Shown here: positions 9,321 to 23,960 of the stretch, in pieces | Numbering within the stretch: position 1 is the stretch's first letter | Layout of the letters: each line of letters begins with the position of its first letter | Assembly (NCBI GenBank): GCA_016218965.1 | Contig: JACRCP010000407.1 | Span: 1-47,902, forward strand | Origin: Deltaproteobacteria bacterium | GTDB lineage: Bacteria; Myxococcota; SpSt-1050; JACRCP01 | Length of the DNA: 47,902 nucleotides | Direction of reading: 5' to 3' | The notes under the pieces: generated by a model | What the model saw: only the letters and a program-made list of their open reading frames with translations | Database searches by the model: none | What the model was told of the DNA's origin: nothing | Program-made: the position numbers and the translations under genes

Positions 9321-9761
9321 TCACGCCGCGGGGGCACGGACGTCAAAGTCGCCGCGGAACCTGACGAAATGGGCGACATTCCACGTCAGCAAAACGTCAG
9401 CCGCGCTCTTCCGGGCGCACGCCGCGATCAACGCGTCGTAGGTCATGCCGCCCCCGATTCCCTCATCCCGGCACCGCGCCAGGAATTGCCAGTATTCCTT
9501 TGCCGAGAGTCCCACGATCTCGTTTCGGCCCCAGTTTCCTTCGAGAAGGTGGTGGGCATCGGCCAGTGCCAGCCTGTGCGGTTGCGGAAGCCGAGTGAGA
9601 ACCGCGTACGCCTCCACCAACGCCGGGGCCGCGATAACGATCCCATGCCCCGCTTTTGCCTCCACGGCGAGCGCCGCCACGGTCGCAGCATGATGCTCGT
9701 GCCAGGCGCAGACCGCGGCAACGAAGCAATTTGAGTCAGGAAGGATCTTCACCTTTTGCAT
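9321..9761 (-). CDS. vapC: PIN-domain toxin (VapC-like ribonuclease)
   Basis: A 146-aa PIN-domain protein. Acidic residues expected to hold the metal are Asp9 (LPDSN), Glu50 (PALVEAY) and Asp109 (TYDAL); the end carries the usual LLTWNxxHF motif, with Asn128 where many VapCs have Asp. VapC toxins cut RNA, commonly tRNA or rRNA, when freed from the antitoxin. The start ATG lies inside the antitoxin gene (26-nt overlap), typical of translationally coupled toxin-antitoxin pairs. The gene converges on the propeller-like lipoprotein gene. The target RNA cannot be predicted. Confidence 0.85.
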   Translation of the reverse strand: MQKVKILPDSNCFVAAVCAWHEHHAATVAALAVEAKAGHGIVIAAPALVEAYAVLTRLPQPHRLALADAHHLLEGNWGRNEIVGLSAKEYWQFLARCRDEGIGGGMTYDALIAACARKSAADVLLTWNVAHFVRFRGDFDVRAPAA

Positions 9762-10032
9762 CGCCGCCTTGTCCGACGGCCCCCCGACCGCTGCGCAGAT
9801 CATCGACTGTCTTGCGGACCGTCTCGTTCGAAAGCACCGGCCTCGGACCCTCGGGCACCGCCACCAGAAGACCACTGCGGCGTTCCAGCCTCACCGGCAG
9901 CGGCGCCGCCTCGATCTCGAGATGGTCGCCAACCACGCGGATCTCCAGCGGGGCGCCCGGCCTGATGCCGGCCGCCTCGCGAAGCGCCTTGGGAATGACC
10001 ACCCGTCCGGCATTGTCCGCGGCCGTCTTCAT
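9736..10032 (-). CDS. vapB: AbrB/SpoVT-type antitoxin (VapB-like)
   Basis: A 98-aa protein whose N-terminus (NAGRVVIPKALREAAGIRPG) is a textbook SpoVT/AbrB swapped-hairpin DNA-binding domain. The rest, ending TVRKTVDDLRSGRG, is the likely toxin-binding arm. It should neutralise the PIN toxin and repress its own promoter. The ATG sits exactly where transcription is predicted to start, with only GGTGGT in front, so the transcript may be leaderless. The toxin gene overlaps its 3' end. Confidence 0.88.
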   Translation of the reverse strand: MKTAADNAGRVVIPKALREAAGIRPGAPLEIRVVGDHLEIEAAPLPVRLERRSGLLVAVPEGPRPVLSNETVRKTVDDLRSGRGAVGQGGDAKGEDPS

Positions 10033-10035
10033 ACC

Positions 10036-10067
10036 ACCATTATTGCCATTGATAATGGTATTGTCAA
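10036..10067 (-). promoter_or_regulatory. vapBC promoter and palindromic operator
   Basis: On the minus strand TTGACA (10067-10062), a 17-nt spacer and AATAAT (10044-10039) give a near-consensus promoter. A perfect inverted repeat, ACCATTAT (10036-10043) and ATAATGGT (10052-10059) with an 8-nt centre, covers the -10 and part of the spacer. This is the expected place for VapB autorepression. The -10 ends 6 nt before the vapB ATG. Confidence 0.75.
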
Positions 10068-10124: not shown

Positions 10125-10889
10125 TCAGCCAAATCCCCCCGCGCCGGCGTCCTGCGGTATCACCGAGCCGAAACCGCCTGCGCTGTTCCTTCGAAGTCCC
10201 GCGGCAGCCAACGCCCGGTACCACATCAAACGGAAGCGCCGCGGGCGTTCCACGGCTATCGCGTGTACAGGCCGGTCCGCGGTCGGATCGAAATGCCAGA
10301 TCCCAATTCTCTCGTCCTGCCAGCCGCGCAGGACGTGGGCAAGGTCGTCCGCCGGCTCGCTGAGACGGGATGCCCACCAGACGTCGCGAATTCCCCGGGC
10401 GCGGAGGAATCGCCCCGAAGGGAGATCCTGCGGCAACACAATCCACCGATTGTCAAAAGTGCCGACTTGGTGCTCAATGTCCCGTGTCCCGACCGTTCTG
10501 TCCTCGTCAAGCAAAAAACAAGGGGGCGCATGCGGCGGCAGCGCAAGTCTCGACAGATGATGCGTGCCGTGATGAATCCTGTCCAGAACCGGCAGCATGT
10601 CGACGATCGCCGCCTTCCCCGCAACGTTGTTGAACAACGGTATGGGCCGGAATCCCCGCTCTGCGAGTGCGATTCCCGTTTCCACCGAGACCGAACCGCT
10701 CAAGTCGATGATGAGTGCCGTGCTCCCGTCCGCCGCCGGCGCCCACCAGAGGTCCACATCGCGCCACTCCCCTCCGGGGCCGCAGGCCGAAGTCTCGTCG
10801 AGCTGCGTGAAAGCGACCGGCTTGGCCCATGGCGACCAGGGCGAATCTTCGGGCGCCCAGACGTTGAAGTGCTCCTCTGGCGTCATCAT
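10125..10889 (-). CDS. unrecognised protein, last gene of the DUF350/ATP-grasp operon
   Basis: A 254-aa soluble protein with no signal peptide or membrane helix. I do not recognise a named family. ALIIDLSGSVSVETGIALAE, followed by RGFRPIPLFNN, looks like a strand-loop-helix-strand Rossmann-type unit. Other blocks rich in Asp, His and Trp (PCFLLDEDR, RWIVLPQDLPSG, DVWWASRL, GIWHFDPTAD) suggest a real globular fold. GGAGGACGGG precedes the start, 22 nt after the ATP-grasp gene, so it belongs to the same transcript. Its position suggests it serves the ligase, for example as a substrate or scaffold partner, but that is inference. Confidence 0.6.
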   Translation of the reverse strand: MMTPEEHFNVWAPEDSPWSPWAKPVAFTQLDETSACGPGGEWRDVDLWWAPAADGSTALIIDLSGSVSVETGIALAERGFRPIPLFNNVAGKAAIVDMLPVLDRIHHGTHHLSRLALPPHAPPCFLLDEDRTVGTRDIEHQVGTFDNRWIVLPQDLPSGRFLRARGIRDVWWASRLSEPADDLAHVLRGWQDERIGIWHFDPTADRPVHAIAVERPRRFRLMWYRALAAAGLRRNSAGGFGSVIPQDAGAGGFG

Positions 10890-10911
10890 CTCCCGTCCTC
10901 CACTCGGACGA

Positions 10912-12141
10912 TCAGCATACGTGCCCGTCCCGAATCAGTACTGCGGCGTCCTGCGCGTATTGGTCGACTAGCGGCCTTCGCGCTACTCGGCCGTAGGCTC
11001 CCGCGGCGCGGCCGTCCACCGTGAACACTCCGATGCAGGGATAGAAGAGGTCCTCTTGATGTTCGAGCGGCACCGGGACAAAACGTCTCTGACGGACCCA
11101 TCGCTCCGGGTGCCTGTGCATCTGTCGCCCGATGTTTTCGGCCTCGCGCGGGCTCGTCACATCTTGAATGAGTACACCGTCCCCGACTCGTCCGAACGCG
11201 GGCTTGAGCACCCATTCGTCGCCGCCCCCGCAAGGCTCGTCCCCCGGTTTTCGTGTTTCCGGGATCCACGTGCGGCAGTTCTTCATCCGGGTTGCCAACT
11301 CGTCCCAAATCAACGGGAATCTCTTGCTTTGAGTCAGAATCGCAGACACCGGATTGCTGATCGGGGTGCGCGAGCCCCCAACGAGATTGGCCCAAACGCA
11401 TGACCGAGGCAGGTTGGGAAGCCATTCTGCCGGGAAGAATCGGACAATGGCATCGACAGGTCGCATCTCCCCGTCGTTCTGGATCGCCGCGCGACCCGAC
11501 GTCCACACGAGCTGCGTCGGAGATCCGAAGATTGGCGCCGCCCCCAAGCGCCTTGCCTGATTCGCGAGATACTGCACGACCTGCCTATCGTCAGCGTAAC
11601 CAGTCGCGTAAACGAAAGCAACGGCCGCATCGGGCGCACAACGCGAGACCAGGGCACCCATGTACGAGCCGGCCGGATCGCCGGGGAGACCACACGTCGG
11701 GAAGCAACCCGCCACTTGCCGCGAGAAACCAGAGCCCTCGACAAACCCTCCCGGGACATCAGTGTTCACCTCGCTCACACGCCAGCCTTCCGTCGTGTAG
11801 TGGAAATCGAACCGCATCACGCGTACCGCGCGCGGGGGATCGAACGATTCGGGAACACGGCGAAACTCGCGGAGCATCGCGCCGGGAAGACCCAATCCGC
11901 CGTGGAGCCCGGGCGAACGGAGGACCTCCGTTTCGGCCTGGAGTATCTCGACCGACATCGCCTCGGCGGCGGCGGCGATCGTGCGCCATTGCCTTGCATC
12001 CAGAATGATGGGGAACGCCGCAAGAGCCGGGAAATCACCGATCTGCGGATCCCACTTGCAGCAGTCAAAAATCGTCTTGAGACGTATCTTTCGGAGGACG
12101 TCCGGAGGAAGCGAATCCGTCGAATGCCATGGGGATTCCAT
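10912..12141 (-). CDS. glutathionylspermidine-synthase-like ATP-grasp ligase (YjfC-type)
   Basis: A 409-aa protein of the GspS C-terminal (ATP-grasp amide ligase) class. RFDFHYTTEGWRVSEVNTD (about 110-128) and EWVLKPAFGRVGDGVLIQD near residue 320 are the substrate and ATP-binding signatures of this family. The amidase half of true glutathionylspermidine synthase is absent, as in E. coli YjfC. Such enzymes join a carboxylate to an amine at the cost of ATP; the substrates here are unknown. The start codon overlaps the stop of the DUF350 gene as TAATG, with GGTGG just before it, so the two are translationally coupled. In E. coli the related yjfL (DUF350) and yjfC also lie close together, which supports a shared role at the membrane. 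Confidence 0.8.
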   Translation of the reverse strand: MESPWHSTDSLPPDVLRKIRLKTIFDCCKWDPQIGDFPALAAFPIILDARQWRTIAAAAEAMSVEILQAETEVLRSPGLHGGLGLPGAMLREFRRVPESFDPPRAVRVMRFDFHYTTEGWRVSEVNTDVPGGFVEGSGFSRQVAGCFPTCGLPGDPAGSYMGALVSRCAPDAAVAFVYATGYADDRQVVQYLANQARRLGAAPIFGSPTQLVWTSGRAAIQNDGEMRPVDAIVRFFPAEWLPNLPRSCVWANLVGGSRTPISNPVSAILTQSKRFPLIWDELATRMKNCRTWIPETRKPGDEPCGGGDEWVLKPAFGRVGDGVLIQDVTSPREAENIGRQMHRHPERWVRQRRFVPVPLEHQEDLFYPCIGVFTVDGRAAGAYGRVARRPLVDQYAQDAAVLIRDGHVC

Positions 12142-12938
12142 TACCACCTGCCTATAGTGGCGACGTGCCAGGCCGCCGCCGCGAGATACGCGATACCAGG
12201 CAGCAGGCCGGTCAAAGCAATGCGCGGTCGTCCCGGGTTCGTCGAACGATCCAGCAAGCGGTTTGCGGGTATCGCGACAAGGGCCATCGGCGCGCAAGGC
12301 CAACCCAATCGCGCGAAATCGGCGACGGTCTGACCGGCCGAATGCCAGTCGCCCGCCACCGACCGCCCCAAGATCACGCCCCACGCGACGTACAACCCGG
12401 CAGCGCGTACGCCGGCGGCAGTGCTACGTTCGACGGTTACGGTTTCATTCGACCGGCCGAACTGTTCGACGGTAGCGGCCAAGATCGCCCAAAGCCCGGT
12501 AGCCAGACCGGACGAGAACGCCACCACCCACCAGCCTGGCCCGTTGCCGATGTTCCCCCCGACGAAACATAGGGTCAGGCCCAACATCGCACCGGCGATC
12601 GCCGTCCCAGCCGCCGGGTTGCCGCGCTCGGCGACATCGTCCCTCGCGCTCAAGCCGACAAGAGGCAAAGCCGTCGCGGCCGCACCAAGCCAGGCGCTTC
12701 CCATCGCCAGGTAGAACAACAGGTAAACCGGGTCGTTGCGAACGTCGGCAGAGGCGAAAAAGCGGAGGACGAGATAGGTGATCCCGGCGCACAGCGGAGG
12801 GGCCGCGTAGATCGGAAGTCTTTTCGCGTGCGATGAGGCCAGCGGTGAAACAGAAAAAACGAAAAAATACCACCGGCCCCACAAGATCAGGCCCGCGACG
12901 CCGCAAAAGCCAAAAACGATGACTTCATCTCCGGACAT
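12141..12938 (-). CDS. DUF350-like polytopic membrane protein (YjfL-type)
   Basis: A 265-aa inner-membrane protein with about eight hydrophobic helices. The sequence is two related halves: each holds an ERGNPAAGT/ERSTAAGVR-like stretch followed by a Gly/Ala-rich helix, and the second continues GVILGRSVAGDW. This fits a duplicated DUF350 unit. GGGAGG lies seven bases before the ATG, 15 nt after the lipid kinase stop. Its stop is fused to the start of the ATP-grasp ligase gene (TAATG). The family's biochemical role is not established; the context suggests a membrane platform or channel for the ligase product. Confidence 0.72.
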   Translation of the reverse strand: MSGDEVIVFGFCGVAGLILWGRWYFFVFSVSPLASSHAKRLPIYAAPPLCAGITYLVLRFFASADVRNDPVYLLFYLAMGSAWLGAAATALPLVGLSARDDVAERGNPAAGTAIAGAMLGLTLCFVGGNIGNGPGWWVVAFSSGLATGLWAILAATVEQFGRSNETVTVERSTAAGVRAAGLYVAWGVILGRSVAGDWHSAGQTVADFARLGWPCAPMALVAIPANRLLDRSTNPGRPRIALTGLLPGIAYLAAAAWHVATIGRW

Positions 12939-12953
12939 TCAGGACCTCCCGCG

Positions 12954-13886
12954 TCACGCCACCACCGTCAGCGCGGCGGGGAGGATTTCGAAGGTGGCCG
13001 GGAGGCGGCCGGGGGCCTCGCCGTCCACGTCGAGGAGGACGCGGTCCTCGGGGTTGACGGGCTCGGCCCGGACCGTTTTGGCGCGGAGCGCCCGGATCTT
13101 GGAGTGCGGCATGTGCCTGCCCTTGTAAACCTTGGTGCCGTTGGTGATCACCTCCCAGAGCGTCAGATCGCCCAGGATCACAACGTCGAAAAAGCCGTCG
13201 TCAATCTGTGCCTCCGGCGCGATCATCATTCCCCCGCCGAAGAACTTCCCGTTGGCGACCGCCACGTTGTTGATCGTCATCTCCTCGGCCGCCGCGCCGT
13301 CAAAACTCACACGGACGCGCTGGTTCCGGTACGCGGCGAACGCCTTGACGGTGCCTATGAAAAACGATGCCTTGCCTCCGAGCGCCTTGGTCGAGTTGTT
13401 GACCTTCTGATCCACCAGCCCGCCGATCCCGAACGACGTGATGTTGACGAAGTGCCTTGTCACCGTCCGCCCTTCGTGGTCGGTGATCTCCATCCGGGCG
13501 GCGTCGATCTTTTTCTGAGAGCCCTCCGCGATCCGCCGGACCGCGGCCTCCACCGTATTTTCGATTCCGAGCGTCTTTCTAAGGTCCCCGCCGGTGCCGC
13601 GCGGGACGAACGCGAGCATCGGACCGGGCCGCGGCGCGCCATCGGCAAGCAGGCCGTTGACGACCTCGTTGTTGGTCCCGTCGCCGCCGACTGAGATGAC
13701 AAGATCGCACCCCGAGTGCGCCGCCTCGCGGGCGAGCGGGGTCGCGTCGCCCTGCGACTTCGTGAACGCGTGTGTAAACGGTCCGATGGCCTCTTTTAGA
13801 AGGGCCTCGATCTGCGGCCACTGCCGCGCGGTCGACCCGTTGGCCGAGTTCGGGTTGACAACGGCAAAAGGGTTGACGAATTTCAT
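12954..13886 (-). CDS. diacylglycerol/lipid kinase (DagK/YegS family)
   Basis: A 310-aa protein with the family's nucleotide motif GGDGT (67-71, in VISVGGDGTNNEVVNG), the PRGTGGDLRKTLG block and the C-terminal beta domain (IDDGFFDVVILGDLTLWEV). These enzymes phosphorylate diacylglycerol, sphingoid bases or related lipids at the inner membrane. The start at 13886 is preceded by GGAGGG; an ATG eight codons upstream is less likely. It sits 20 nt behind the Fe-S subunit and 15 nt before the DUF350 gene. With the AGPS-like flavoprotein at the head of the operon, this suggests handling of an ether- or glycerolipid, but the substrate is not shown by the sequence. Confidence 0.88.
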   Translation of the reverse strand: MKFVNPFAVVNPNSANGSTARQWPQIEALLKEAIGPFTHAFTKSQGDATPLAREAAHSGCDLVISVGGDGTNNEVVNGLLADGAPRPGPMLAFVPRGTGGDLRKTLGIENTVEAAVRRIAEGSQKKIDAARMEITDHEGRTVTRHFVNITSFGIGGLVDQKVNNSTKALGGKASFFIGTVKAFAAYRNQRVRVSFDGAAAEEMTINNVAVANGKFFGGGMMIAPEAQIDDGFFDVVILGDLTLWEVITNGTKVYKGRHMPHSKIRALRAKTVRAEPVNPEDRVLLDVDGEAPGRLPATFEILPAALTVVA

Positions 13887-13906
13887 CTGCGACCCTCCGT
13901 TCGGCA

Positions 13907-15031
13907 TCAATGTTCTGTCACCGCGTCGTACACAACATCCACAACGTCCACCACCTCAACCCCGCTCCCTTCGCGCCGGAGCATGGCCTCGCACGACGGG
14001 CACGCCGTCGCGATGGCGTCGGCCCCGATTTTTTTGAAATGCCCGCGCCTCGCGCCGGCGATCGCGCGGGCCGTGCCGGGCGACGTGAGCGGCAGATTCC
14101 CGCCGGCGCCGCAGCAATAGGCATTCTCGCGGTTCCACTGGAACTCCGCGACCTCGGCCCCACAGTAGTAGAGCGCGCGCCGGGGCTCGTCGTACAAGCC
14201 GAGGTGACGCCCCAGGTAGCACGGGTCGTGAAAAGCGAAACGGCGCCCGGACTTCTTGAGCCTGGCCGAGGATGCTTCGAGGAGCGGCAGCAGGAACTCG
14301 ACGGCATGTCGGACCTTCGGCCGGATGTCAATCCCCTGCTCCGGGTAGAGCGCCCGGAGCGCGTATGCGCACGCCGGGCACGGCGTCACGACGAGTTTGT
14401 ACGCCGAGAGCGCCGACGCGACTTTTTCGGCGTGCGCACGGAACTCGCGCACGAAACCGGCCGAGAAGAGTGGAAGGCCGCAACAGTACGGCGAGCGGCC
14501 CGCGCCGTCCCAGGCGCCGAGGTAGTCAACGCCGAGCTTCGCGGCCGACGCGAAGAACTTCGTTATTATCCCCGGGCTCCGGAGCGTGTGCGTGCAGCCG
14601 CCGAAAAACACGGCCCCGACGCCTTTTTCGAAATGCTCGGGCGGCAGGAGCTCGCGGATCACCTCTTGCGGGGCCTTCCCGGCGGGATTTCCCGAGGTCA
14701 CGAACGCCTGCTTGAGCGCCGCGATTCCTGGCGGTGCCGCCCCGCATTCGATTGCGAGCGCCCGGCCGGCGGAAAGCGAGTGCGGGACCGCGATCTCGTG
14801 CACGCAGTACGACCGGCAGAGCAGGCACCCGAGGCACTTGTAGAAGAGCGAGCAGTTGTCGGGATCGGAGGCGTGGGCGCCGGAATCGACAAGATTGAGC
14901 ATCGTCATCTTGCCCCACGGCGTCACCGTCTCCCGGCACTCGGCGTTGCTCACCGGGCACGCGTGCCGGCAGAGTTTGGGGCAGGCGGTGCAGAACTCGA
15001 CGTCCTTGTGTTGTCCCCGCGAAATAGCCAT
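13907..15031 (-). CDS. Fe-S subunit of a glycolate-oxidase-like dehydrogenase (GlcF/HdrD-like)
   Basis: A 374-aa protein with two N-terminal 4Fe-4S motifs (Cys14/17/21/25 and Cys66/69/72/76) and two Cys-Cys-Gly (CCG) domains. The latter contain FFGGCTHTLR ... YCCGLP and DPCYLGRH ... YCCGAGG ... ACPSCEAML. Such subunits carry electrons from a flavin dehydrogenase to the quinone pool or another carrier. It starts 6 nt after the FAD-binding subunit gene and lies just before the lipid kinase. It most likely forms a complex with the two flavin-type proteins encoded upstream. Confidence 0.88.
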   Translation of the reverse strand: MAISRGQHKDVEFCTACPKLCRHACPVSNAECRETVTPWGKMTMLNLVDSGAHASDPDNCSLFYKCLGCLLCRSYCVHEIAVPHSLSAGRALAIECGAAPPGIAALKQAFVTSGNPAGKAPQEVIRELLPPEHFEKGVGAVFFGGCTHTLRSPGIITKFFASAAKLGVDYLGAWDGAGRSPYCCGLPLFSAGFVREFRAHAEKVASALSAYKLVVTPCPACAYALRALYPEQGIDIRPKVRHAVEFLLPLLEASSARLKKSGRRFAFHDPCYLGRHLGLYDEPRRALYYCGAEVAEFQWNRENAYCCGAGGNLPLTSPGTARAIAGARRGHFKKIGADAIATACPSCEAMLRREGSGVEVVDVVDVVYDAVTEH

Positions 15032-15037
15032 CAGCGA

Positions 15038-16024
15038 TCAGCCTTCAGCATCCAGCGCGATTCCGATTCTGCGGAAGATCCCTTCGATGACCGGACTTCC
15101 CCCGTTCGTAAGGAACGCCCCGCCGCAACGGACGACCATACCCCCGCGCCCGGCTGCCGCGTCCGATGCGACCCGCGCCGCATCCGGCGGGGTCTTTCCG
15201 TCGAAACCGAAGAGAACGGAGAAACCCTCAGTCCCGTATCGCCACAGCGCGCCGCAGCGGGAGCCGAGCCTTTCAAGCGCGCCGCCCGCCTCCCGGATCG
15301 CGGCCAGGTTCGAATACCGCGCGTACACCTCCACGCCGTCTTTCCGCGCCCGCCCGCATTCCGCCAGGACGTCCGCCGAGCCGGAGGGGAGCGCTTCGAC
15401 CCTGACAGCGAGTCCTGCGCGTCCGCCCGGGTCCACCGGCTCGACACTGACCCCGGCCTCTGCGGTGGCAGCCCCCGCGGCCCGCACGATCGTGTCGGCG
15501 AACTGCGCCCTCGCGCGCCCCAGGTCGGTCCCGGTGTCGTGGACAAGGACCAGCGTATGAAACGACCCATTCGAAGTGAAATGCGCCGCCTCGATCTTCG
15601 CCTTCCGGTGCGCGAGCGAGGCCAACGCGGCGGCGGCCCGTTCGAGGAGATCGAACCGGTACACGGCCTCGCCGCGCGCCGACGGGGCCGGATGGACGCG
15701 AAGCCATATCTCGCGGACGCGTGCGAGCGCGCCGGCCGTCGACGAGACGAGGTAGTTGAGGTCCGGCCCGGTCGCCGACCGCGGCGCCATGTTCGTCACC
15801 AACCGCCCGCCTTTTCCTTGGGCCGAGATCGACACAATGCGATCGAGGAGCGTCCCGCCCGCCCAGTTGCAGGGCGGGATGAGCGGGTCGGCAAGCCAGT
15901 CCGCGACGGTGAATGCGGGGTTGCTCCCGGCGGGCGGCTGGAAGGCGCCGAGCGTGAACCCGTGTCGTCCGAGTTCGGCCTCCAGGTCGTCGACGCGGAC
16001 CTCGACGGGCGTCTTGACAAGCAT
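15038..16024 (-). CDS. GlcE-like FAD-binding subunit
   Basis: A 328-aa protein resembling the small FAD-binding subunit of glycolate/D-2-hydroxyacid dehydrogenases. It carries a reduced PCMH-type region (PLIPPCNWAGGTLLDRIVSI ... GRLVTNMAPRSATGPDL) and the terminal FRRIGIALDAEG. It lacks the strongest FAD-contact motifs of the large subunit, so it may be a structural partner. The ATG at 16024 was chosen; a TTG at 16051 would add nine residues, and neither start has a strong ribosome site. Spacing is 78 nt from the upstream flavoprotein and 6 nt to the Fe-S gene. Confidence 0.72.
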   Translation of the reverse strand: MLVKTPVEVRVDDLEAELGRHGFTLGAFQPPAGSNPAFTVADWLADPLIPPCNWAGGTLLDRIVSISAQGKGGRLVTNMAPRSATGPDLNYLVSSTAGALARVREIWLRVHPAPSARGEAVYRFDLLERAAAALASLAHRKAKIEAAHFTSNGSFHTLVLVHDTGTDLGRARAQFADTIVRAAGAATAEAGVSVEPVDPGGRAGLAVRVEALPSGSADVLAECGRARKDGVEVYARYSNLAAIREAGGALERLGSRCGALWRYGTEGFSVLFGFDGKTPPDAARVASDAAAGRGGMVVRCGGAFLTNGGSPVIEGIFRRIGIALDAEG

Positions 16025-16102
16025 CGCCTTGCTGTTGATTTCAAATCCCAAATCTGACCGCCTGTCCTGCTCTTGCCTTTCGCCTCTTGCCTCTCGCCTT
16101 GC

Positions 16103-17650
16103 TCAAAGTCCGAGCTTCCCCGGGTTCATCACCCCGTTCGGGTCGAACGCGCGTTTGACCGCGCGGTAGTACGGCATCCCGCCCTCGTGCTGGCGCGGCA
16201 GGAAGCGGGCCTTGCTCACGCCCACGCCGTGGTGGTGGCTGATGGTCGCGCCCGCCGAGATCGCGGCCTCAAGCGCGCGGTCCCAAATCCGGTCATAGAG
16301 CGCCTCGGCCTTTCCCCTCCGCCGCGGGCCTACGAACGTGAAATAGATCGAGCACCCGTCGGCATAGGCGTGCGAGAAATGCGCCATGATGAACGCCTGT
16401 GCCGCCACCGCCTTTTTTACCCCGAAATAGAGCGGCATGATGCGGTCCCACGGGGCGGCGACCTCCATGGTGTCACAGAAACCGCCCGCAAAGAATATCT
16501 TCGACTGCTTGTACGACACGGCGTAGCGTTTCTTGAGCCAATGCAGGCCGGGCGCTTCTCCCTCGTCCCTCCCGCCGCATGAGACAAACACCTCGCGCGC
16601 CGCGCGCACCTCGGCGTCGAGCATCGCGCCGTCGTCGCCGGAGAAAACCGTGACTAGCATGCAGCCGCCCGGCAGGTAGTCGGCAATCCTGTTCAGCACC
16701 GAGGTCGCGCCGAGCATCCGCTTGATCACAGCCTCGGTGAGCTCGCCCGGGACTGAGATCTCCTTGATGAACGACCCGAGGAGCCTGCCCCTGGGTTTCT
16801 TTACCGCACGGGTCTTTTCCTTTCCGAACCCGACAATCGTGTCGAACTCGTCGTAGAGGCGCAACACGGTCGGGCGGATCCCGAGTGCGAAGACCCGCCG
16901 CATCGCCTCGACCCCGGCGGCGACGTCGGGGAAGACGGTCCCGCGCGGAAGAACGATCGCCGGCTTGTCGTGGACGCGGAGGACCGACTTTGTGATGACC
17001 CCGAGCGTCCCTTCGGACCCGATGAGAAGCTGGTTTACGGAGTTGGCCTGATCCGGCGTGCCGCACTCCGCGGTGTCAACGACCTCACCGTCCCCCGTCA
17101 CAAACCTGAGCGAGACGACCATGTCCTCGATCTTGCCGTACCGGCTTGACTCCTGTCCCGCGCCGCGGGCCGCGATCCAGCCCCCGACGGACGAGCAGAT
17201 GATTGACGACGGGAAATGGCCTACGGTCAGCCCCTGCCGTTCCATCTCCATCTCGGCGTGCATGCCGATGACGCCCGGCTCGAAGGCGCAGGTCATCGAA
17301 GCAAGGTCGGGCGAATCGATCCGATTGAGCCTTTTCACGTCGAGCATCACGCCGCCCCGCACCGCGAGCGTCCCGCCGCAGACACCCGATCCGGCGCCGA
17401 ACGGGATGAGCGGGAACCGCTCGACGTTTGCGAGCCTGACGAGATCGACGACCTGCTGTTCCGACGCCGGCCAGACGATGGCCGAAGGCGCATGCGGCGA
17501 CCGGTTCTCCTTGAGCCAGATGATGGACTTGGGCCACAAATCCCGGTTGTACGAGAAGATGTCCGAAGGCCGCGTCGAAACGCCGTCGCCGCCGACGATG
17601 GCCGCAATCCCGCCGAGGATCGCGTCCGTGAGGTGTGTCGATTTCTCCAT
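16103..17650 (-). CDS. FAD-binding oxidase of the AGPS/GlcD family
   Basis: A 515-aa VAO-type flavoprotein. The PCMH FAD domain is clear (PLIPFGAGSGVCGGTL, then GVIGMHAEMEMERQGLTVGH and NQLLIGSEGTLGVITK). Near the C-terminus SHHHGVGVSKARF carries the His-rich loop that is characteristic of alkyldihydroxyacetonephosphate synthase, the ether-lipid enzyme, more than of glycolate oxidase. Family length is about 500-600 aa, so it is complete. It is the first gene of the seven-gene operon; ATG 17650 has no good ribosome site but a TTGACA-type promoter close in front. It could be a true ether-lipid synthase or a D-2-hydroxyacid dehydrogenase acting with the GlcE/GlcF-like partners. Confidence 0.85.
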   Translation of the reverse strand: MEKSTHLTDAILGGIAAIVGGDGVSTRPSDIFSYNRDLWPKSIIWLKENRSPHAPSAIVWPASEQQVVDLVRLANVERFPLIPFGAGSGVCGGTLAVRGGVMLDVKRLNRIDSPDLASMTCAFEPGVIGMHAEMEMERQGLTVGHFPSSIICSSVGGWIAARGAGQESSRYGKIEDMVVSLRFVTGDGEVVDTAECGTPDQANSVNQLLIGSEGTLGVITKSVLRVHDKPAIVLPRGTVFPDVAAGVEAMRRVFALGIRPTVLRLYDEFDTIVGFGKEKTRAVKKPRGRLLGSFIKEISVPGELTEAVIKRMLGATSVLNRIADYLPGGCMLVTVFSGDDGAMLDAEVRAAREVFVSCGGRDEGEAPGLHWLKKRYAVSYKQSKIFFAGGFCDTMEVAAPWDRIMPLYFGVKKAVAAQAFIMAHFSHAYADGCSIYFTFVGPRRRGKAEALYDRIWDRALEAAISAGATISHHHGVGVSKARFLPRQHEGGMPYYRAVKRAFDPNGVMNPGKLGL

Positions 17651-20301: not shown

Positions 20302-21292
20302 GTGTTCGGATGTGTTCGTTGAGTGTGCAGGCGATCCTTTCCGCGACGGCCTTTGGCGTCGTCCTTCCGTAGTGCCCGTCCATCGCGAGGAGAACCCCGC
20401 CGACTGCAGGTTCGGTTCGAAGCTTGATGATCTTGACGGGGTTTCGCGCGGTCTTCACCACTCGCGCAAGGGCATCCGCGGGGACGGGGGGGCGCCCGCG
20501 CATGAACACGCTGCCGCCCAGGGCCACGGTAACAGGTTCGCCGGGCGCAAAGAGATCGTTAATGACGAACCTCGCCGCCTTGCCGATGCTCGATCCCGCG
20601 CGCACGAGGATGTCGTGCGCCACGGCATCTCCCATCGCCGCGGCCCTAAACGCAAGCGGCGTCACGGCGGCGATCGCGTCCTCCCGGCCCACGTCGCAGA
20701 ACCCGAGCTCGATCATGTCCTCGATGTCGTCTAGGCCGAACCTCTCCAGAATCAGGTCGTGAAGCAGGGTGTTCGGGCCACGCCCCTCGGCCTGCTTCAT
20801 CGCGGCGTTGACGGCGGCGACGGCGATGTCCGTGCCGCCTCCCCAGTCGGCCGAAAGCGGCCCGAGCCCGCCGACCCTCTTGAAACGGCCCTCGCGGTTG
20901 AACCCCATGACGTTGACGCCCGTGCCCGAAATGCACGCCACACCGACTCCGTCGGGGGTGCCGGCGCGCAGGGCGATGGACGTGTCGTTGACCAGCACGC
21001 GAAGCGGCGAAGCGTCGAAGCCGATGATCATGTCCATGACCGTCGCGTAGTCCTTATCACGGTCGGCCCCGCAGATGCCGTACCCGGCGGCGGCTGTCGC
21101 CGCAGGCCTGACCCCCGCGACGCGGAGCGCCCGGCGGTGGGCAAGCGCAAGTTCGGCCCGCGCCGCACGGACGCCGATCTCCTGGAAGTTGATCCCCCCC
21201 GACCGCCCGACGCCAAGAACATCGCCCTCGGCGTCCGCCACGACCGCGATCGTCTTCGACCCCCCGCCGTCCATTCCAAGGAAGTACGTCAT
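20294..21292 (-). CDS. BadF/BadG-type ATPase, N-acetylglucosamine-kinase-like
   Basis: A 332-aa ASKHA-fold kinase. MTYFLGMDGGGSKTIAVVAD is the phosphate-1 motif, CISGTGVNVMGFN the phosphate-2 region, GGLGPLSADWGGG the interdomain block and ALGGSVF the adenosine motif. The closest known class is eukaryote-like N-acetylglucosamine/N-acetylmuramic-type sugar kinase, which would phosphorylate amino sugars released from glycans or recycled cell wall. TTGGAG lies 8 nt before the ATG. It converges on the GH31 gene with overlapping ends and is divergent from the kinase-like receptor gene across 97 bp. Confidence 0.85.
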   Translation of the reverse strand: MTYFLGMDGGGSKTIAVVADAEGDVLGVGRSGGINFQEIGVRAARAELALAHRRALRVAGVRPAATAAAGYGICGADRDKDYATVMDMIIGFDASPLRVLVNDTSIALRAGTPDGVGVACISGTGVNVMGFNREGRFKRVGGLGPLSADWGGGTDIAVAAVNAAMKQAEGRGPNTLLHDLILERFGLDDIEDMIELGFCDVGREDAIAAVTPLAFRAAAMGDAVAHDILVRAGSSIGKAARFVINDLFAPGEPVTVALGGSVFMRGRPPVPADALARVVKTARNPVKIIKLRTEPAVGGVLLAMDGHYGRTTPKAVAERIACTLNEHIRTPT

Positions 21293-21389
21293 GCCAGTGT
21301 CTCCAACAAAAGTTGCAACGCTAGTCGGGCATGTGATAGTAAGCCTGCATTATTCGGGCTTTGTCAACTCCTTGGCAAGGGGTGATGCA

Positions 21390-23960
21390 GTGCTTTGTTA
21401 CAGGTGCGGAAGCCATGTCCCCGACGGGAGCGAGTTCTGTCCCAACTGCGGCCAGCGATTCACCGCGGGCGTGAGCAAGGATGAAGGGAAGGCCGTCCCG
21501 GCGGACGAGGACTCGCACCAGTACCAGTTCAAGGCGGGGGACGTGATCGCCGGCCGGTACCGGATCAAGGGGATCATCGGCTCGGGCGGGATAGGCGAGG
21601 TCTACCGGGCGCACGACTCGGAGATCGACGTCGACGTGGCGGTCAAGGTCCTGCACGAAGGCGTGATCACCGGCGAGGACGATTTCAGGCAGTTCTCGAC
21701 GGAGCTCAAGGCGGCCCGGAAGCTTGCCCACCAGAACATCGTCCGCGTGTACGACGTCGACCGGGATTCCGGAAAGGTCTTCTACGCGCTCCAGCTCCTG
21801 GAAGGCCTGACCCTCCGCCGGATCATCATGCTTCGCGCCGAGAAGAACCAGGTGTTCTCGCTCCAGGAGGTCGAGCCGATCTTTTCGCAGATCGTCCATG
21901 CGCTCGAGCACGCGCACCAGTTCACGTTTCACGGCAACCTCAAGCCCGAGAACGTGGTCATCCTTCCCGATCTCCTCAAGGTCACCGACTTCTTCCTGAT
22001 TGGCGCCCTGGGGCGCAAAAAGTTCCTCGACCGCCAGAAGACGGACGCGGGCGGGCTGCGGTACCTGGCGCCGGAGATCCGCTACGAGTGGGACAACGTC
22101 AACAACCGGGCCGACATCTTTTCGCTGGGCGCCATCCTTTCGGAGATGGTTACGGGAGAACCCTACGACGGCGGGCCGGCCAACCCCTCGGCGCGCAACC
22201 GCGCGCTCCCGCGATCGATCGACCGCCTCTGCGGCCGGGCGCTCGAGGAGGACCCGTTCAAGCGCCACGAGAGCGTGACTGAGTTCCTCCAGGAACTCAA
22301 CCGGGTGATCGAGGAGTCGATCACGGGCCTTTCGGCATCCGAGGTTGCGGCGCCCAAGACCAAGGAAGAGGAATTCCTCCCCGAGGGCGAGTTCGAGGAG
22401 ATCGAGGACCACGAGATCGAGGAGATCGAAGGACCCGCGCGGGCCGATGCGAAACCCGCCGCGGACAGGGGCCGGCGCGTCTCGTTCGGCCTCGAAGAGG
22501 AGCCGCGGGCCGCTCAGTCCGAAGGGTCCGCTCCCAGAGAGAGCAGGGCCCTCTATGCGGCTGCCGGGGCAGGGGGCCCGTCTGCCGCGCCCCCCGACGC
22601 GGCCGAGGCCGAAGACAAACCGGCGCGTCCCGCGCCTTCGGTCCCGCCGAAAAAGGCCGAGGCCAAACCGGCGCCCGCCAGGCCGGACGACAAGCCGATC
22701 AAACCCGAGCAGCCGAGGCTTCCGACCGCGATCGTGCGCGCGCAGAAGCGGCACTTCACCGCAATCCTGATAATGTTCCTTCTCGTGGTGCTCGTGATCG
22801 CCGGCGGTTCCTTCTTTATCTGGAAGCAGAGCGACAAGGACCGGCGCCAGCGCATCGCCGAGCTTGCCGAGATCGAAGAGCAGCGGAAAAAGGTCGACGA
22901 ACGACAGAAAAAACTTGATGATCAGATTACCCAGCTCCTGGCGGCCAAGAAGGATGCCGAGGAAAAGGTGAAGGCGCAGGAGGAGGAGGAGAAAAAAATC
23001 GCGGTCAAGACGGAACCCGTAAAGGAGGCGGTCAAGGAGGCCAAGGAGGCGAAGGAGGAGAAGCCCGAGCCGCTGCCGCCCGAGAAAAAGGGGCCGACCG
23101 AAGAGGAGAAGAACCTCGCCGACATCGAAGCCAAGCTTGCGAAGATTCGCGAACAGAAGGAGATGGCCGCCCAGCAGAAGGCCGAACTCGAGGCCAAGAA
23201 GTTTGCCAAGGCCGAAGAACGCAAGGCGGCGATGGAGGAGGCCAAACGAAAGGCGGAGGAGCGCAAGGCCGATCTCGATGCCAGGAAGGCCGAGACCGAG
23301 AAGGCAAAGGCCGAAGAGAAGGCCCGCAAGGAGGAAGAGAAGAAGAAGTCCGAGGAGGAGGCCAAAAAGGCCGCCGCGGCCGCAAAGGAGCCCAAGTGCC
23401 CCAGGGGGATGGTGCTGGTTCCGGCGGGCAGGTTCCAGTTCGGATCGGCCGCCGGCGACCCGATGAAGGGTTTTGGCGAGAAGAACAACGAGCCCGTCGA
23501 TCTTCCCGCCTATTGCATAGACATATACGAATACCCGAACGGCTCGGGCAAGCTCCCGCGCACCGGGATCTCGTACGGCGGCGCCGAGGGGGCGTGCAGG
23601 AAGGCCGCAAAGCGCATCTGCACCGAACAGGAATGGGAAAAGGCATGCAAGGGGCCTGGAGGGTTCCGCTATCCGTACGGCAACAAGTGGGAGCCCGCTT
23701 TCTGCAACAGCGAGGACGACCAGGGCAACAAGAAGCAGGTGGGCCCGGCCGGCTCGTTCACGAAGTGCCGGAGCGGCTATGGCGTGGCGGACATGAGCGG
23801 CAACGTCGCCGAGTGGGTCAACGCGGGCGGGGCGAAGGCGAACAAGGGCGGGGCCGCCGACCGGCCCAACTACGCCGTCCGTTGCGCGGCCAAGGCGGCG
23901 GCCGACCCGGGCAAGACCAGCGCGACCCTGGGATTCCGGTGCTGCGCGGGCGCGGACTGA
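21390..23960 (+). CDS. zinc-ribbon Ser/Thr pseudokinase receptor with FGE-sulfatase domain
   Basis: An 856-aa single-pass membrane protein. The N-terminus is a zinc ribbon (Cys3, Cys6, Cys17, Cys20). A Hanks-type kinase domain follows (about 55-320), with the Gly loop IGSGGIGEVY and VAVK Lys86. However, HRD is replaced by HGN (181-183, in HGNLKPEN) and DFG by DFF (200-202), so it is probably catalytically weak or dead. An acidic linker leads to a TM helix (about 455-479), a long Lys/Glu/Ala coiled coil (about 485-665) and a periplasmic FGE-sulfatase-like domain (670-856; MVLVPAGRFQFGS ... YGVADMSGNVAEWVN ... LGFRCC). The start is GTG with AAGGGG seven bases upstream. It looks like a sensor or scaffold linking cytoplasm and envelope. 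Confidence 0.85.
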   Translation: MLCYRCGSHVPDGSEFCPNCGQRFTAGVSKDEGKAVPADEDSHQYQFKAGDVIAGRYRIKGIIGSGGIGEVYRAHDSEIDVDVAVKVLHEGVITGEDDFRQFSTELKAARKLAHQNIVRVYDVDRDSGKVFYALQLLEGLTLRRIIMLRAEKNQVFSLQEVEPIFSQIVHALEHAHQFTFHGNLKPENVVILPDLLKVTDFFLIGALGRKKFLDRQKTDAGGLRYLAPEIRYEWDNVNNRADIFSLGAILSEMVTGEPYDGGPANPSARNRALPRSIDRLCGRALEEDPFKRHESVTEFLQELNRVIEESITGLSASEVAAPKTKEEEFLPEGEFEEIEDHEIEEIEGPARADAKPAADRGRRVSFGLEEEPRAAQSEGSAPRESRALYAAAGAGGPSAAPPDAAEAEDKPARPAPSVPPKKAEAKPAPARPDDKPIKPEQPRLPTAIVRAQKRHFTAILIMFLLVVLVIAGGSFFIWKQSDKDRRQRIAELAEIEEQRKKVDERQKKLDDQITQLLAAKKDAEEKVKAQEEEEKKIAVKTEPVKEAVKEAKEAKEEKPEPLPPEKKGPTEEEKNLADIEAKLAKIREQKEMAAQQKAELEAKKFAKAEERKAAMEEAKRKAEERKADLDARKAETEKAKAEEKARKEEEKKKSEEEAKKAAAAAKEPKCPRGMVLVPAGRFQFGSAAGDPMKGFGEKNNEPVDLPAYCIDIYEYPNGSGKLPRTGISYGGAEGACRKAAKRICTEQEWEKACKGPGGFRYPYGNKWEPAFCNSEDDQGNKKQVGPAGSFTKCRSGYGVADMSGNVAEWVNAGGAKANKGGAADRPNYAVRCAAKAAADPGKTSATLGFRCCAGAD

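Follow-up and report, generated by a model that had tools for sequence, protein, structure and literature searches.

The enzymes closest to the system described here are ligases related to glutathionylspermidine synthetase (GspS, or Gss). The acceptor of GspS/Gss is the C-terminal glycine carboxylate of glutathione, which makes a protein ending in glycine a natural type of substrate for an enzyme of this kind. In Escherichia coli, two such enzymes, YgiC and YjfC, are named peptide-spermidine ligases in RefSeq, a naming that reportedly originates from Pederick et al. 2023 (cited by title in PMC12568646 and PMC10948618). YgiC is reported to lack GspS activity (PMC12506659), and a literature search found no settled answer as to the cellular substrates and purpose of the bacterial peptide-spermidine ligases. 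PMC11237479 describes DUF350 proteins with GspS-like ATP-grasp ligases as the third group of envelope-stress, phage-shock-protein (PSP)-associated polyamine operons; PSP-associated operons include PspA, DUF1190, and DUF2491, and are discussed there with polyamine genes. In eukaryotes, spermidine is joined to the C-terminal Gly-Gly carboxylate of SUMO and ubiquitin (PMC12270671). We analysed a 47,902-nt stretch of DNA from a Deltaproteobacteria bacterium (contig JACRCP010000407.1; hereafter the window), and in it a set of seven minus-strand genes at 10,125-17,650 (Table 1). They encode two flavoproteins (FAD1 and FAD2), an Fe-S protein, a lipid kinase, a DUF350-type membrane protein, a GspS-like ligase, and a protein of an unnamed family, g7. 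Gene neighbourhoods, structural models, and the analogy with GspS make it probable that the last three genes, called the trio below, form an independent modification system in which the ligase amidates the C-terminal glycine of g7 with an amine, most probably a polyamine.

An earlier reading of the window, made from its sequence only, had joined all seven genes in a single pathway: a lipid or membrane compound, prepared by the flavin/Fe-S proteins and the kinase, would be amidated or peptidylated by the ligase at the DUF350 protein. Its description of the locus was accurate. The seven open reading frames (ORFs) lie where it placed them, spaced by at most 78 nt (51-78 nt, 6 nt, an overlap, 15 nt between the kinase and DUF350 genes, a 1-nt overlap, and 22 nt), and the DUF350 and ligase genes are coupled through TAATG (GGTGGTAATGGAA, ligase ATG at 12141). 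Its family identifications agree with our family searches, those of DUF350 and FAD2 being weak; a Pfam scan of the seven proteins returned GSP_synth (PF03738, 71.7 bits), DAGK_cat with YegS_C, FAD_binding_4 with FAD-oxidase_C, and the CCG domain. A weak scan of the minus strand from 17650 to 10600 found no promoter-like site between the genes, so that a single transcript over all seven is plausible here, although unproven. The common strand, the short gaps, and the lack of an internal promoter-like site all speak for a single pathway.

We examined whether the seven genes also stay together elsewhere. Relatives of the ligase were taken from Nostoc, Planctomycetaceae, Holophagales, Verrucomicrobiales, Sumerlaeia, and other genomes of the window's phylum, and most of their loci have the same-strand order DUF350-ligase-g7. 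Searched with a g7 profile, the Acidobacteriota set gave matches in 11 of its 297 genomes, the Planctomycetota set in 18 of 294, the Verrucomicrobiota set in 5 of 289, the phylum of the window in 18 of 189, and the cyanobacterial set in 1 of 292 (the Nostoc case alone), a spread over at least five phyla; among plasmids, no relative of the window's ligase was found. By hand counts from the locus table, the ligase gene adjoins g7 in 41 of 47 intact cases, and in 32 of these, the window included, the ligase gene in turn adjoins DUF350. Pairwise identities of the three proteins correlate across 14 loci (r 0.87-0.89), and because they track each other they are consistent with inheritance of the trio as a unit. 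Six genomes of the Acidobacteriota set carry a long g7 gene without a nearby ligase, and in all six a strong ligase match (E 1e-76 to 1e-97) lies at another place in the genome. Two genomes have a broken g7, one reduced to a stand-alone 58-codon C-terminal tail (L139:7685-7861) and the other interrupted by a stop (L142:7741-8426); they gave just weak remote ligase matches (E 1e-9 and 3e-13), of a kind present in other genomes too. With two broken cases, the tendency of intact g7 to go with the presence of a ligase is suggestive.

Beyond the window, 48 g7 loci were examined, 35 of them with 3 kb or more of upstream sequence, and none contained a flavin, Fe-S, or kinase gene. The order FAD1-FAD2-FeS-kinase, on the other hand, recurs across other genomes of the window's phylum (for example at loci L065, L066, L072-L074, L076, and L077), and DUF350, ligase, and g7 were absent from every four-gene locus examined. 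The seven genes thus appear to be two separately conserved gene sets, not one pathway, the four upstream genes being by this comparison a distinct lipid or redox unit of AGPS-like kind, which by chance precedes the trio in the window's genome. We regard a seven-gene pathway as highly improbable, since no other locus of either kind combines both sets and the closest characterised relatives of the ligase act on peptides, not lipids. The adjacency in relatives by which the sequence-only reading had proposed to check its pathway therefore fails. A lipid-amidating role of the ligase was rejected for want of conserved linkage; the C-terminal tail of g7, a protein to which that reading gave no role, is the likelier substrate. 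Its pairing of DUF350 with the ligase is borne out by the 32 loci, and its comparison with E. coli YjfL and YjfC proved the right lead, the ligase fold being closest to YjfC/YgiC and the yjf locus of like make-up.

The ligase model (pLDDT 82, pTM 0.87) was compared with solved structures by Foldseek over about 400 residues. The top folds were YjfC (7uk6, E 4e-18, TM 0.70) and YgiC (7uk8, E 7e-18), with glutathionylspermidine synthetase behind. A single ligase sequence gave no match against the PDB, and a profile was needed. As the A3 alignment contains YgiC and YjfC, which in part explains why its profile ranks them top, we used instead a profile without E. coli sequences, which detected both YgiC (E 1.4e-6) and Gss (E 1.9e-5). 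Residues R110, D112, E124, N126, D128, K273, and K313 are invariant across the 14 ligases of the A3 alignment, YgiC and YjfC included, and the corresponding R, D, E, and N are required for activity in a distant relative, Cp1B (PMC12568646). The GSP_synth fold, the catalytic R/D/E/N/D, identical to those of YgiC and YjfC, and the ATP-site lysines of that type are thus all present. Gss shares the synthetase fold but alone has an N-terminal amidase domain, for which Pfam gave no match in the 409-aa window ligase. By sequence and model, then, the ligase is to be classed with YgiC and YjfC, as a stand-alone ATP-grasp enzyme that resembles glutathionylspermidine synthetase and is predicted to ligate spermidine to a peptide.

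The g7 protein has no family match in Pfam, NCBIfam, PHROGs, or PADLOC, a profile search gave no match, and PADLOC matched no defence system. Its model (pLDDT 80, pTM 0.83) consists of an alpha/beta domain and a disordered tail, residues 231-254 (pLDDT <50). A fold search of the PDB gave no match at E≤0.001 (best E 0.036, TM 0.26), and we therefore assign no enzyme function to the domain. The tail carries a GxFG motif, usually GGFG, in which G238, F240, and G241 are invariant in 22 g7 relatives, and behind the motif comes a brief stretch rich in Ser and Gly, in most cases with Gly as its last residue; the last 25 residues of g7 proteins are 28% Gly and 20% Ser. The C-terminal residue is Gly in 39 of 47 intact g7 proteins (40 of 48 when the tail-only fragment is counted) and in 23 of 28 representatives with <50% identity. 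Of the controls from the same loci, none of the 41 ligases and one of the 20 DUF350 proteins end in Gly.

The tail is of this kind in longer g7 forms too (e.g. ...RSGSFGRSGSSSGG); most of these gain an N-terminal hydrophobic segment, often behind a twin-arginine-like SRR motif, or, in L114, a lipobox-like sequence. The SRR-x-hydrophobic N-termini of the long forms at L116:7300-8682 and L029:9950-11449 resemble twin-arginine export signals. These features suggest that long-form g7, in contrast to that of the window, may be exported or anchored in the membrane. Near long-form g7 there is often an extra unnamed gene, coding for about 190-280 aa with the motif FFGIQ/YFLGIQ (L115, L116, L120, L122, L123, L029, and L030); searches of Pfam, PHROGs, and PADLOC gave nothing for the L029 copy.

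We compared the g7 tail with the partners of the E. coli ligases. The DUF1190 proteins encoded by ygiB-ygiC and yjfM-yjfC end in the same kind of tail, GG[FY]G...GG-COOH (of the form RGGFG...GG-COOH; YjfM ends ...SRGGYGRSSSARGHWGG), and among 11 Pseudomonadota DUF1190 proteins 9 end in GG and 2 in GS, behind a G[FY]G motif. A GspS-like ligase gene adjoins the DUF1190 gene in 8 of 8 annotated neighbourhoods (two of E. coli and six plasmid records), and a DUF350 gene is also present in 5 of the 8, a count that leaves out the DUF350 gene of L155, annotated just as an inner membrane protein. Beyond the tail, no homology between g7 and DUF1190 was detectable. Membership of g7 in DUF1190 was considered and rejected, Pfam giving no match at ≤0.1 for the window's g7 and none at E≤1 for those of L016, L018, L023, L026, and L029. 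With two unrelated domains, one kind of tail, and one kind of ligase, the tail is best explained as what the ligase handles. The trio matches the make-up of E. coli yjfL-yjfM-yjfC (DUF350, GG-tailed protein, ligase) but differs in its unrelated partner and in the order DUF350-ligase-partner. YgiB, moreover, has a lipoprotein-type N-terminus, whereas in the short forms of g7 no export signal is evident. PspA, YjfI, and YjfK are not beside the trio; the operon has no PspA or CesT/Tir-like (YjfI) gene, and the Pfam-scanned neighbours on both sides belong to other families. In the accessible part of PMC11237479 we found no mention of g7 or of the window's gene set, in contrast to DUF1190 and DUF2491. 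Judged by these sequence comparisons, the trio is likely a variant of the YgiC/YjfC system with a new, unrelated partner family, g7; our literature search found no description of that family, its tail, or its phylum spread.

An alternative that we think unlikely is that the ligase makes a small molecule, such as a glutathionylspermidine-like or other pseudopeptide, g7 being a scaffold, regulator, or second enzyme with its tail as a binding element. The fold common to Gss and glutathione synthetases would fit such a product, and the invariant D128, R131, D146, N147, and R148 of the ordered g7 domain could form a catalytic or binding site. It would leave unexplained, however, both the free C-terminal Gly of most g7 proteins and the like tail on unrelated DUF1190 proteins beside peptide-spermidine ligases, and it sits poorly with the reported lack of GspS activity in YgiC (PMC12506659).

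In the modification of g7 that we favour, the ligase would bind the flexible C-terminal tail and, with ATP, phosphorylate the terminal-glycine carboxylate to an acyl phosphate. Condensation with a primary amine would follow, the likeliest being a polyamine such as spermidine, in parallel to GspS acting on glutathione. The capped, positively charged tail may alter the interactions of g7, perhaps with the membrane beside the DUF350 protein. The proposed acceptor is thus a protein tail, where that of Gss is glutathione, and the trio would use an ATP-grasp ligase where the conjugation of spermidine to SUMO and ubiquitin uses E1/E2 enzymes (PMC12270671). The reaction, the polyamine donor, the role of DUF350, and the physiological effect are all inferred. 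Spermidine-synthase-like proteins are encoded in the window's genome.

As regards the donor, RimK adds amino acids to the C-terminus of ribosomal protein S6, and ATP-grasp ligases with amino-acid donors are common. A RimK/S6-like reaction, in which the ligase adds an amino acid or peptide instead of a polyamine to the g7 C-terminus, can be envisaged all the more as sequence alone does not reveal donor specificity here. We nevertheless hold it to be quite improbable: the nearest characterised relatives use spermidine, and related operons are discussed with polyamine genes in PMC11237479. Several points do weigh against polyamination of g7 by the ligase. Identity of the ligase to YgiC/YjfC is 18-19%, and 8 of the 47 intact g7 proteins have a terminal residue other than Gly, mostly Ser. 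The ligase might use a different amine, or an amino acid, as donor, or might act on some other peptide, and the tail might serve membrane or protein binding instead; conservation of gene order is linkage, and no proof of substrate identity.

The window's DUF350 protein scores 24.3 bits against PF03994 (cut-off 26) as a protein and 30.7 in a genome search, and those of relatives L016 and L026 score 28.1 and 115.9 bits. That it might hold modified g7 at the membrane is a guess. The window genome's other DUF350 match (contig C175, about 32.5-34.1 kb; loci L001 and L147) lies near a same-strand gene whose 523-aa open frame is spermidine-synthase-like, a pair that resembles the second operon group of PMC11237479.

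For the four-gene unit, the nearest solved structure to FAD1 is AGPS (2uuu, E 2e-60, residues 43-513). The similarity is full-length, and the C-terminal HHH motif of AGPS is kept in FAD1, as SHHHGVG aligned with 2uuu. FAD2 has no Pfam match and merely a weak GlcE match. At locus L073, two ORFs upstream of the unit resemble, by eye, glycerol-3-phosphate dehydrogenase genes. We take Rv2251 of Mycobacterium tuberculosis to be AGPS-like. According to PMC4564863, the Rv2251-Rv2252 pair sets a flavoprotein gene beside a diacylglycerol kinase gene, close to glpD1, which recalls genes 1 and 4 of the window; unlike the window's unit, it shows no GlcE/GlcF-like genes between in the table of that paper. 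With the dehydrogenase-like ORFs of L073, this pair makes a glycerolipid role for the four-gene unit a reasonable proposal. In two order-mates (L063 and L064), FAD1-FAD2 is followed by no recognisable Fe-S or kinase genes and then by an opposite-strand gene.

Elsewhere in the window, minus-strand genes of MazE-like and PIN-domain type (9321-10039) are likely a VapBC-type toxin-antitoxin pair, accompanied at 10067-10039 by a promoter-like site of good quality (TTGACA-17-AATAAT). The product of 21075-23960 is a protein kinase that also has an FGE-sulfatase domain, and that of 31470-33737 matches Kazal and antistasin protease-inhibitor domains.

Table 1. Features of the seven-gene set, in window coordinates.
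Feature	Position	Strand	Remarks
FAD1, AGPS/GlcD-like FAD oxidase	16103-17650	minus	ATG 17650, alternative TTG 17689; four-gene unit
FAD2, divergent GlcE-like flavoprotein-type subunit	15038-16051 (TTG) or from ATG 16024	minus	weak GlcE match, position conserved; four-gene unit
Fe-S protein with CCG domains, GlcF/GlpC-like	13907-15031	minus	family searches; four-gene unit
YegS/DagK-type lipid kinase	12954-13910	minus	TIGR00147, 160 bits; last gene of four-gene unit
DUF350-type membrane protein, 265 aa	12141-12938	minus	weak PF03994 match; TAATG-coupled to ligase
ATP-grasp ligase, 409 aa, YgiC/YjfC-like GSP_synth without amidase domain	10912-12141	minus	PF03738, fold matches; 409 codons at 10915-12141
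Ligase catalytic block R110-x-D112 ... E124-x-N126-x-D128	11758-11814	minus	invariant in 14 ligases
g7, 254-aa alpha/beta protein, unnamed family, proposed acceptor	10125-10889	minus	contiguous with ligase in relatives
g7 C-terminal tail, residues 231-254, end GGFGSVIPQDAGAGGFG-COOH	10128-10199	minus	first GGFG codons 10167-10178

That two unrelated families, encoded beside such ligases in separate phyla, carry a like C-terminal tail suggests that the substrate is the tail. On a wider view, C-terminal polyamination may be a dedicated modification in many phyla, in which YgiC/YjfC-like ligases would cap a portable GGFG...Gly-COOH tail on at least two unrelated families, DUF1190 and g7, recognising the tail and not the folded domain; g7 would then be the first partner outside DUF1190. 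We consider the arguments for and against this generalisation to be evenly balanced. Amine attachment to a protein C-terminus is almost unknown in bacteria. If the proposal is true, C-terminal polyamine modification would be a further entry among the few protein modifications known from bacteria, and the unnamed g7 family, present in at least five phyla, would gain a function.

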